From an uncultured Bacteroidales bacterium (GTDB lineage: Bacteria; Bacteroidota; Bacteroidia; Bacteroidales; UBA932): DNA of 43,444 nt. How positions within the stretch are numbered: the stretch's first letter is position 1; each line of letters opens with the position of its first letter. This document shows positions 32,016 through 34,843 of the stretch, piece after piece. The notes beneath the pieces were generated by a model, which saw only the letters and a program-made list of their open reading frames with translations, had not been told where the DNA came from and did no database searches. The position numbers and the translations under genes were made by a program. The stretch covers positions 1 to 43,444 of the forward strand of contig ONOQ01000038.1 in NCBI GenBank assembly GCA_900319485.1. Reading direction: 5' to 3'.

Positions 32016-33158
32016 TTAGTCAATGTCGTCCGGGTCCGTTACCGCCGAGCCCTTCCCCATCAGGAAGGTCTTCATGAACTCGTTCAGGTCTCCGTCAAGG
32101 ACGCCCTGGGTATCGGCAGTATTGTAGCCGGTGCGGAGGTCCTTTACAAGTTTGTAAGGGTGAAGGACGTAGTTGCGGATTTGGGATCCCCATTCTATGC
32201 GCTTTTTCTGGCCTTCAAGTTCCGCCTGCTTTTCCTGGCGCTTCTTGAGCTCAATGTCATAGAGGCGGGATTTGAGGATGAGGAGTGCCCTCTGGCGATT
32301 GTCCTGCTGGCTGCGGGTTTCAGTATTTTCCACCATTATGCCGGAGGGGATGTGTCTTACACGCACGCCGGTTTCCACCTTGTTCACGTTCTGGCCACCG
32401 TGGCCGCCGCTGCGGAAGGTGTCCCACTCAAGGTCTGAGGGGTTGATTTCTATGTTGATGCTGTCATCTACCAACGGATACACAAAGACGCTTGAAAATG
32501 TGGTCTGGCGCTTTCCCTGGGCGTTGAAGGGAGAGATGCGAACCAGGCGGTGGACGCCGTTTTCGGCCTTCAGATAGCCGTACGCGTAATCCCCTTCCAC
32601 CTCAATTGTGCAACTCTTGATACCGGCTTCTTCCCCTTCCAGAAGGGAGGTGACCGTCATCTTGTAGCCGTTGCGCTCTCCCCAGCGGAGGTACATTCTC
32701 ATAAGCATTGCGCTCCAGTCATTGGCCTCCGTGCCGCCGGCGCCTGAGTTGATGGTGAGGACAGCGCCAAGGTTGTCTCCTTCGCCCCCAAGCATATTCT
32801 TTAGTTCCAGGGCCTCTACGGCTTCCTGGGCTGCGGCGAAGGCGCTGGCCAGTTCCTTGGTTTCCGGCGTCTCCATGGCTTCTTCATCGGCCCCGGAAAT
32901 GCTGTCCTTGGCAAAATCGTACAGGACGTCAAGATCATCGGCCTGCTCACGGGCCTTGTCAAAGCCTGTGACCCAGGACTTTATGCCTGCGAGCTTCTTG
33001 AGAAAAGCCTCTGCCGCCTTAGGGTCGTTCCAAAAGTCCGCTGCCAAAGTTTCTTCCGTTTTGGCGGCCACTTCCCTGCGCTTTGCCGCTATCTCCAGGC
33101 AGCCCTCCAGTTTTTTCACCCGCTCCTGCAGGTCCCTTATCTGTTCCTGTGTAATCAT
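32016..33158 (-). CDS. prfB: Peptide chain release factor 2, 380 aa
   Basis: RF2 reads UGA and UAA stop codons. The anticodon-like tripeptide SPF (VRISPFNAQGKRQ) marks RF2 rather than RF1, and the catalytic GGQ is in SGGHGGQNVNKVETGVRV. The N-terminal region runs straight through the point where E. coli prfB has its programmed +1 frameshift (EGCLEIAAKRRE). There is no in-frame stop, so that autoregulation is absent. The start at 33158 follows the -7 box by six bases, and the longer ORF upstream is repeat DNA read as protein. An eight-copy motif array lies upstream. Confidence 0.96.
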   Translation of the reverse strand: MITQEQIRDLQERVKKLEGCLEIAAKRREVAAKTEETLAADFWNDPKAAEAFLKKLAGIKSWVTGFDKAREQADDLDVLYDFAKDSISGADEEAMETPETKELASAFAAAQEAVEALELKNMLGGEGDNLGAVLTINSGAGGTEANDWSAMLMRMYLRWGERNGYKMTVTSLLEGEEAGIKSCTIEVEGDYAYGYLKAENGVHRLVRISPFNAQGKRQTTFSSVFVYPLVDDSINIEINPSDLEWDTFRSGGHGGQNVNKVETGVRVRHIPSGIMVENTETRSQQDNRQRALLILKSRLYDIELKKRQEKQAELEGQKKRIEWGSQIRNYVLHPYKLVKDLRTGYNTADTQGVLDGDLNEFMKTFLMGKGSAVTDPDDID

Positions 33159-33164
33159 ATCGTA

Positions 33165-33172
33165 CAAATATA
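33165..33172 (-). promoter_or_regulatory. -7 box of prfB, six bases before ATG
   Basis: On the minus strand TATATTTG is followed by TACGAT and then ATG. No TTTG occurs at -33, where a T-rich stretch and the edge of the repeat array lie instead. Confidence 0.65.
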
Positions 33173-33203
33173 CTAAAAAAACTTGACGTAGCACACAGAG
33201 AGT

Positions 33204-33385
33204 GTCGCAGGTCCCGGGCCGAAGTGTCGCCGGTCTGCAAAAATGGCTCCACCTGCGACGCAAATCAGCCACAGGAGCCAAAAAGTGTCGCGGGTCCGGA
33301 CAAAAACGCAGACCTGCGACGTTGTGGCGGCTCACCTGCGACGGGAAACATCGGCACCTGCGACAAAAAAAGAGTGACCTGCGAC
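33204..33385. repeat. Iteron-like array of eight GTCGCAGGT-type motifs
   Basis: Nine-base motifs occur at 33204 (GTCGCAGGT), 33226 (GTCGCCGGT), 33251 (ACCTGCGAC), 33287 (GTCGCGGGT), 33312, 33334, 33356 and 33377 (all ACCTGCGAC). Start-to-start spacing is 22, 25, 36, 25, 22, 22 and 21 bases, about two helical turns. Opposed copies can pair into imperfect hairpins (33251 with 33226, and 33312 with 33287). The intervening sequences differ. I did not find the motif elsewhere in the window. Confidence 0.85.
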
Positions 33386-33397
33386 GGTCACTCTTTT
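33365..33397 (-). terminator. Terminator of the Ser-rich gene, built around an array motif
   Basis: AAAAGAGTGACC pairs with GGTCACTCTTTT (12 bp) around the loop TGCGAC, followed on the minus strand by seven T. The loop and inner stem form the last copy of the GTCGCAGGT array. Confidence 0.85.
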
Positions 33398-33415
33398 GAT
33401 TATGTGTGATAAACT

Positions 33416-34843
33416 CTAGCGGTAGATATCGTACTGGTTGTAGAGGGAACCGTACATCTGACCAAGGACTTCAAGGTAAGGCATACCGTCAAAGAGTGTG
33501 GTGCGATACACGGTGTTGTCTACCATATAGTACTCTACGCCGCCCATAACTATGATCTCATAGTCGTCGGGGAGTGAGGTTACCAGGGCGCCGGCAGGAG
33601 GTACGATTGTGGTGTAGGCTCCGGAAGCGCTGATGGTGTAGAAGACGCCGTCCTGATAGAAGTACTGGCTGTTGGCATAAGCGTAACTCTGTACCAGTCC
33701 CAGACGGTTTGCAAGTTCATATGCGGTAAGCGCTCTGTTGCTGTTGAGGGCATAGGAAGCGTTGTTTGCTATGATGCGGGCGTTCTGCTGGGCGATAATC
33801 AGGTTCTGGCGGGCAATTACGTTGTAGTAGTCAAAGGTGCGGGTGAAGGTGCGATATACGTCGCAGTAATACGCGAACCTGAGGCTGTGAAGGATTGCCC
33901 TGTTGATCGCTACCTCCAGGGGAGTTCCGAAAGGAGGACGGCAGACCACGTAGTAACCGCCATAGGGCCGATAATACACACCGTTGTAGTAGTAGTAATC
34001 GATTCCCCAATGACTGATGTGGCGCCACTGAGGCGGACGGTTGTGGATGCGGTATCCGTAGTAGTGAGGATGGTCTCCCCAGAAGTTTCCGGGACGGTCC
34101 CAGCCAAGCATATCACGCTGACGGGGCGCTACCCTGTACATATTGTGGGAGTTGTCCACACGCATATCGTCGTTGTAACGGTAGTTGAAGCCTGAATCCC
34201 TGTACACTTTGTCAGTGGAGCGGTTTTCTGCCACGGAACTGTCTCCGGAAAGGCCGGAACGGGTCACGTTGCTGGAAGCGCGTACTGCAGTGGAAGTGCT
34301 GGAGGAAGAACTGCTGCGGGTAGCCTGTCCTGAACTGCTGCTCCTCACGGAACCGTCGGAGGAGGAACTGCTGCTTCTCACGGTAGTTCCGGAAGCGCTG
34401 CTGCTGGAACGGGTACCTGAGGCACTTGATCCGCTGCTGGAAGAGCGGGTGACCTGCTGGCTGCTGCTGCCGGAGGTGCTTCTGGTTGTGCTAGAAGAAC
34501 CTGAAGTGGAGCGGGTTGCCTGCTGGCTGCTACCGCTGGAAGAGCGGGTGACCTGCTGGCTGCTGCTTCCTGAAGTGCTCCTTGTGGAAGAAGAACCGGA
34601 AGTTGAGCGGCTTACCTGCTGGCTGCCGGAGGAACTTGAACGGGACACGGTGGAAGCAGAACTGGAGCGGGTAGCTGAAGAGGAGCTTGACCGTGAAACG
34701 GAGGAACCTGAGCTTGAGCGGGTTGCCTGGGTAGAAGATGATCTTGTGCCGCTGGAAGAGCGGGTCTGGGCCATCATATCAGGTGCTGCGACGAGGGACA
34801 GAGCCATTAGCACCGTTGCGGCCATTGTCATTAAACGTCTCAT
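33416..34843 (-). CDS. Secreted Ser/Arg/Thr-repeat protein with DUF6515-like C-terminus, 475 aa
   Basis: A signal peptide (MRRLMTMAATVLMALSLVAA ... MAQ) leads into about 160 residues of low-complexity repeats built from RSTSGSSS, TRSSSGSS and QQVTRSSS units (34270-34760). The DNA is also repetitive there. The C-terminal half is Tyr-rich: a block with GIDYYYYNGVYYRPYGGYYV at about 280-300, then AYELANRLGLVQSYAYANSQ and YFYQDGVFYTISASG, ending LEVLGQMYGSLYNQYDIYR. This resembles DUF6515-type envelope proteins. It is likely periplasmic or surface-exposed, with the repeat as a flexible spacer. It follows namZ by 19 bases on the same strand. Confidence 0.82.
   Translation of the reverse strand: MRRLMTMAATVLMALSLVAAPDMMAQTRSSSGTRSSSTQATRSSSGSSVSRSSSSSATRSSSASTVSRSSSSGSQQVSRSTSGSSSTRSTSGSSSQQVTRSSSGSSQQATRSTSGSSSTTRSTSGSSSQQVTRSSSSGSSASGTRSSSSASGTTVRSSSSSSDGSVRSSSSGQATRSSSSSSTSTAVRASSNVTRSGLSGDSSVAENRSTDKVYRDSGFNYRYNDDMRVDNSHNMYRVAPRQRDMLGWDRPGNFWGDHPHYYGYRIHNRPPQWRHISHWGIDYYYYNGVYYRPYGGYYVVCRPPFGTPLEVAINRAILHSLRFAYYCDVYRTFTRTFDYYNVIARQNLIIAQQNARIIANNASYALNSNRALTAYELANRLGLVQSYAYANSQYFYQDGVFYTISASGAYTTIVPPAGALVTSLPDDYEIIVMGGVEYYMVDNTVYRTTLFDGMPYLEVLGQMYGSLYNQYDIYR

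Follow-up and report, generated by a model that had tools for sequence, protein, structure and literature searches.

What is a cluster of near-identical 9-bp motifs doing upstream of a peptide chain release factor gene? The question is raised by a 43,444-nucleotide stretch of DNA (the window) from an uncultured Bacteroidales bacterium (assembly GCA_900319485.1, contig ONOQ01000038.1), in which eight such motifs lie between prfB and a Ser-rich gene. The array was examined in the window, in the rest of this genome (G000; 2.5 Mb, 91 contigs) and in related genomes. With a probability of roughly 0.84, it is one copy of a dispersed, non-autonomous element resembling repetitive extragenic palindromes (REPs) and their hairpin-forming doublets (REPINs), with a divergent REP-associated tyrosine transposase (RAYT) as its partner. 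The 9-mer of the array matches the word of this single-strand DNA transposase family in the same uncultured gut bacteria. prfB is a bystander, and the system is of the REP/RAYT type in a new form.

Layout of the array

The features of the array, followed by its neighbours, are listed below with the basis of each assignment.

33204..33212, +, outer left half-site, exact GTCGCAGGT (motif search)
33226..33320, +, core, 95 bp, REPIN-like double hairpin, > 25 < 36 > 25 < (architecture common to ten G000 cores; fold)
33226..33234, +, core copy 1, GTCGCCGGT, one mismatch (motif search)
33251..33259, -, core copy 2, exact (motif search)
33260..33286, +, core centre, 27 nt, gcaaatcagccacaggagccaaaaagt (alignment with 25 other cores)
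33287..33295, +, core copy 3, GTCGCGGGT, one mismatch (motif search)
33312..33320, -, core copy 4, exact (motif search)
33334..33342, -, outer right half-site, exact (motif search)
33356..33364, -, outer right half-site, exact (motif search)
33368..33397, -, terminator of the Ser-rich gene, 12-bp stem; the eighth "copy" forms its loop, 33377-33385 (scan and sequence)
32016..33158, -, prfB, peptide chain release factor 2, 380 aa, ATG at 33158 (named from its sequence, without a family search)
33165..33172, -, TATATTTG, possible prfB promoter element, outside the array (sequence only)
33416..34843, -, Ser-rich gene, 475 aa, 3' end toward the array (open reading frame, ORF)

The eight motifs of the preliminary description and their start spacings (22, 25, 36, 25, 22, 22 and 21 bp) are real, and comprise six exact copies of GTCGCAGGT (33204+, 33251-, 33312-, 33334-, 33356- and 33377-) and two with one mismatch (33226+ and 33287+). 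The exact word occurred in the window six times, always inside the 182 bases of 33204-33385; in 100 shuffles of the window its mean count was 0.35 and its maximum 2, and none reached 6. The motifs are oriented > > < > < < < <, and the first seven are mirror-symmetric about 33273, save for one additional right-hand copy. The near two-turn spacing described earlier was confirmed. A strict alignment on one helix face was not: 22 bp is 2.1 turns of B-DNA, a drift of about 34 degrees per unit (arithmetic, 10.5 bp per turn).

The last copy, the one at the odd spacing of 21 bp, lies in a terminator loop, as had been described, and the terminator is the Ser-rich gene's own. The terminator scan placed the hairpin on the plus strand, and the T run after the stem was read on the minus strand. 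The same terminator is retained in two relatives that have no array at this site (G168 and G169), with the near-matching loops ACCTGCGAG and ACCTGCGGC, and the eighth copy is set apart from the element for this reason. The array is thus seven element copies and one look-alike, the latter probably the native terminator loop. On the other side, TATATTTG matches the Bacteroidetes -7 consensus, TAnnTTTG, and may be part of the prfB promoter. The Ser-rich gene contains internal tandem repeats (period 99, 34436-34626) in its RSSSG-rich part.

Dispersed copies in the genome

The search for clustered words elsewhere in the genome, proposed with the preliminary description, found them in arrays of fixed spacing. 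G000 held 98 exact words versus 18 for a reversed-word control. Regions with adjacent exact word pairs were fetched, and 11 arrays of at least three words were read; one more pair (C43:35766) lay outside any such array. By start positions, adjacent >< pairs in the 11 arrays were 25 bp apart in 20 of 20 cases, <> pairs 36 bp apart in 9 of 9 and same-direction neighbours 22 bp apart in 48 of 54, and the element follows the plan [>22]n >25< 36 >25< [22<]m. Ten complete 95-bp cores were read, with an AT-rich interior and the 27-nt centre, and one array (L042) was half an element. The cores were intergenic, with neighbouring genes of varied orientation (ORF inspection).

As in the REP/REPIN system, short palindromes are dispersed as inverted pairs with a hairpin (ten cores; fold), and the 95-bp core forms a hairpin of double-REP, REPIN-like type. 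Folded as single-stranded DNA, it reached -20.8 kcal/mol (z -3.9). The covariation score of the nested long hairpin was equalled by 0 of 500 shuffles; two separate small hairpins were rejected as the core structure, covariation being absent. The outer 9-mers are tandem half-sites, the number of which changes between relatives. Among 95 distinct outer units from four genomes, the 9-mer columns were 83-100% conserved and the 13-nt spacer mostly variable, a contrast that is partly built in because units were chosen by at most two mismatches in the 9-mer. The earlier suggestion of a young dispersed repeat family thus holds as to dispersal: the element is dispersed, keeps a single rigid architecture, and varies in unit number and presence between relatives.

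Two other repeats were encountered. An approximately 85-bp palindromic stretch in one array-bearing region (L043, 2990-3110; G000:C56), with GGGATTACCGGTAATCCC inside, is another dispersed repeat, with dozens of matching places in G168 and G169 and none found in the window. A 21-bp direct repeat in G026, a genome from another family of the order (L051, 1976-2172; CGCAGG-like core, single orientation), fitted the pair pattern and was rejected, as it looks like an unrelated family.

The probable RAYT-like partner and its words

The partner gene lies on a different contig of the same genome (C63:33057-34013, minus strand), and a 99% relative of this RAYT is present in RUG722. Its product is a divergent REP-associated tyrosine (HUH/Y1) transposase with a RAYT-like fold, closest to 4er8, and has the HxH motif and the catalytic Y (Y128) with N four residues on that are expected of RAYTs. 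Among homologs, 18 of 29 matched Y1_Tnp and 12 of 29 REP_Tyr_transpos (E up to 10; best 1e-5 and 6.3e-5); a PDB sequence search with the RAYT profile gave two irrelevant matches only (E up to 10). The published class-2 signature has L, V, I, F, Y or M as u of HuH, plus Y---NP (PMC6006769). In the 80 RAYT loci surveyed, u was G, A, S or C in 76 (33 G, 15 A, 15 S, 13 C), L or F in 2 and unmatched in 2, and the residue following Y---N was A in 75, T in 3, V in 2 and P in none. The family is therefore related to RAYTs but does not fit the published class-2 signature. Its proteins measure about 300-320 aa, carry mostly NH[GASC]H as well as YIPRNA, and have no invariant W ahead of the Y.

The surroundings of the 80 loci (up to 900 bp away) were searched for hairpins of 9-bp words ending in AGGT, with arm starts 24-26 bp apart. 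Exact hairpins were found at 52 of 80 loci versus 2 of 77 distant flanks and 0 of 80 shuffled flanks, the definition itself requiring AGGT; when this requirement was dropped, the top word held AGGT in 54 of the 58 loci with any exact hairpin. With one mismatch allowed, a word was present at 64 of 80 loci versus 2 of 77 distant flanks. The nearby words differ in five bases, and 21 different words were found. Word distance correlated with protein distance (r 0.587, 64 loci; 0 of 2000 permutations as high), and the 21 words correspond to 23 changes on the tree versus a shuffled mean of 45.5. Arrays of the same design thus stand beside the partner genes, and the word follows RAYT phylogeny. A paralog of the partner in G000 (45% identical) has GGACCAGGT hairpins, and words of other RAYT clades include GGCGCAGGT and GGGCAAGGT. 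At least two cognate copies were present on both sides of the gene, as in the REP/REPIN system, in 36 of the 57 loci that had a word and at least 500 bp of flank on either side. The GT[AG]G of REPs was not found at the palindrome foot; AGGT lies on the loop side of NNNNNAGGT. For three of the words, pairs occurred in 12, 14 and 18 of 151 genomes, some single matches looking like chance.

In G019, a small HRDC-domain protein (L047, 3117-3533; Pfam HRDC 7e-16) is encoded between array and RAYT; the corresponding G000 position has a different small ORF without family matches. A third, more distant RAYT-like gene of G000 (L198, C57; 25% identity, one internal stop) is flanked by approximately 52-bp repeats (1150-1480 and 2590-2900) with the inverted words GGTGATGTGAC / GTCACACCACC, a second repeat design in this genome.

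Orthologous sites in relatives

The prfB neighbourhood, including its upstream side, was read in nine relatives (G167, G168, G169, G171, G173, G176, G019, G142 and G170). At the most similar locus, that of G167 (isolate RUG722), the array was 105 bp shorter, with flanks 99% and 95% identical and both breakpoints inside identical inverse words. No exact word was found at prfB in the other eight, which are more distant or rearranged there; the orientation of prfB is reversed in G176 and G019, and near-matches beside prfB and the Ser-rich gene were confined to the terminator loops in G168 and G169. In G168 (L183), G169 (L184) and G176 (L187), prfB and the Ser-rich gene are separated by a pncA homolog (74-81% identity), whereas in the window pncA is on the opposite side of prfB from the Ser-rich gene. 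Conservation of the array upstream of prfB, which was to be checked, was therefore not found among these relatives.

The RAYT-flanking arrays occur at the same sites in G000, G167, G168 and G169, so some sites are old; their unit numbers differ, and spacer units are re-used or re-ordered. G169 has the L043 array, G167 a shortened form of it and G168 none. The left flank of another array, L041, is different in each of the four genomes, so this array coincides with a rearrangement breakpoint. Neither site in G168 was accepted as a clean empty site, the L041 flank differing as described and L043 having been lost with most of its intergenic stretch. The relatives' data show instability, not clean insertion.

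Alternative explanations

In one alternative, a dedicated regulator would bind the motifs as an operator or enhancer of prfB-pncA-pncB, in keeping with the position directly upstream of the possible prfB promoter and with the near two-turn phasing. This is very improbable, and it fails the refutation test set with the preliminary description: of nine relatives, eight have no array at prfB and one has a shorter one, and the same design stands at unrelated genes, whether these are arranged in tandem, convergently or divergently (by inspection). The prfB copy, with the upstream gene's terminator on one side and the prfB promoter region on the other, most likely serves no dedicated function in regulation. 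Chance clustering, an ordinary tandem repeat or a CRISPR array would be proposed from the repetition alone, and their probability is close to nil: the shuffles never gave six copies, the mirrored architecture recurs in ten cores, and Tandem Repeats Finder did not report the array. CRISPR was rejected on the 9-bp units in mirrored orientation, direct repeats being 24-48 bp with unique spacers according to PMC3733652; the preliminary description had already, and rightly, set both kinds of repeat aside. In Rfam, 32900-33700 of the window gave two matches far below the gathering score, taken as chance, and PHROGs gave no useful match.

A structural element (terminator, RNA stabiliser or nucleoid site), kept for host benefit and maintained by the RAYT, is unlikely. 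Array and terminator together form a very stable RNA fold (-100.7 kcal/mol, z -6.3), three G000 arrays (L039, L041 and L046) adjoin an ORF's 3' end or overlap with it, and sites are common to relatives (the RAYT-flanking arrays in four genomes; L043 in G169). However, arrays are lost or shortened at other orthologous sites, and the spacers diverge while the 9-mer is kept, in units chosen by that 9-mer. Mu/Tn7-type elements have subterminal transposase-binding sites, which the phased direct half-sites resemble, and the array could be imagined as akin to a miniature inverted-repeat transposable element (MITE), its 9-mers bound and its movement driven by a double-strand transposase other than the RAYT; the RAYT gene would then be only a passenger or insertion host. 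In 7 of 12 genomes with word I, several of them incomplete assemblies, no RAYT of that clade was among those listed. Yet matching hairpins near most RAYT loci and words that follow RAYT phylogeny make this improbable, and inspection of ORFs, which was not a search, revealed no other gene common to the array-flanked loci of G000 and G019.

Several observations weigh against the preferred reading, a REP/REPIN-like element with a RAYT partner. No word was obtained at 16 of 80 RAYT loci, and 21 of 57 lacked two copies on one side. Co-occurrence of RAYT and its own word in 30 genomes, in counts that include word copies beside the RAYT itself, was significant for words I (p 0.0086) and III (p 0.0046) and not for word II (p 0.28). 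The genome richest in word-I pairs (G141, 29+17) has no close RAYT in its incomplete assembly, and G023, G063, G102, G105, G108 and G137 also have no listed RAYT of the word-I clade. Because the arrays beside a RAYT gene descend in part together with it, the agreement of word and phylogeny falls short of proving recognition. The partner protein (P0001) alone matches neither the Y1_Tnp nor the RAYT model, and its Foldseek E for 4er8 is 2.6e-3. Stem covariation stems from a single lineage, G019, and pairs altered on both sides were not above shuffles (125/500). No transposition was seen, the comparisons giving differences of presence, absence and unit number; neither a target duplication nor an unambiguous pre-insertion site was identified, both array-less G168 sites examined differing in their flanks.

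Proposed mechanism and implications

The RAYT would recognise the 9-mer as five specificity bases plus the constant AGGT, and would act on the 95-bp core when this is single-stranded and folded into outer 13-bp and inner 11-bp stems, cleaving the core and then rejoining it or copying it elsewhere. The outer 22-bp half-sites may be additional binding sites, their number rising and falling via tandem duplication and recombination between copies. The protein-loading site proposed earlier is thereby kept in altered form, the likely binder being a RAYT-type transposase with a cognate word. Tentatively, the RAYT could be a two-part protein: a candidate C-terminal DnaA-box-binding-like domain (residues 160-319) would read a double-stranded 9-bp word, NNNNN-AGGT, that evolves and recurs at two-turn intervals, and the arrays would be iteron-like loading platforms; the HUH domain would process the folded single-strand core between them, and word and protein would co-evolve in a recognition code of about 20 words.

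The system bears on how RAYTs choose REPs and why RAYTs are kept. One bacterial group offers a RAYT series with 21 nearby words, together with arrays that could report binding by footprint, so that exchanging domains and words would put specificity to the test. In uncultured Bacteroidales, annotation of phased intergenic 9-mers as operators or origins should be avoided.

Comparison with known systems

An element of this architecture was not found by title and abstract in the RAYT/REP and Bacteroidetes literature, most subscription papers being outside the search. The comparisons below draw on the accessible portions of the cited papers. The BrickBuilt MITE of Porphyromonas gingivalis (PMC4596501) is likewise a dispersed intergenic element of Bacteroidales with short-period repeats and inverted ends; compared by description only, it differs in its 23-nt tandem repeats without spacers and has no RAYT link in that account. 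TIRYT/TIRtron systems (PMC3733652, PMC6006769) mostly involve RAYT subclass 2.1, with a C-terminal helix-turn-helix/DnaA-like domain. Their constant part is GGGGWSAS, here AGGT; they have the class 2 Y---NP, whereas Y---NA and a small residue in HxH are found here, and phased half-site arrays are not described in those portions. RAYT subclass 2.6 (group 5; PMC6006769) belongs to the same phylum, with flanking "atypical secondary structures" that also occur elsewhere in the genome. It is set apart by its description: median 179 aa, NH[LIV]H, WQ and YIH[QN]NP, as opposed to about 300-320 aa, NH[GASC]H and YIPRNA.

REPINs and REPs with RAYT (TnpAREP) in P. fluorescens SBW25 and E. coli (PMC3116915, PMC8266576) have GTAG before the palindrome and hundreds of copies, whereas here the constant AGGT is found on the loop side of a 9-bp stem, arrays of 22-bp half-sites extend outward, and the complete copies read number ten. 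In both systems, short dispersed inverted pairs form hairpins, the transposase gene has cognate copies next to it, one genome holds several RAYTs that differ in their words, and the transposase has the HUH/Y1 fold.
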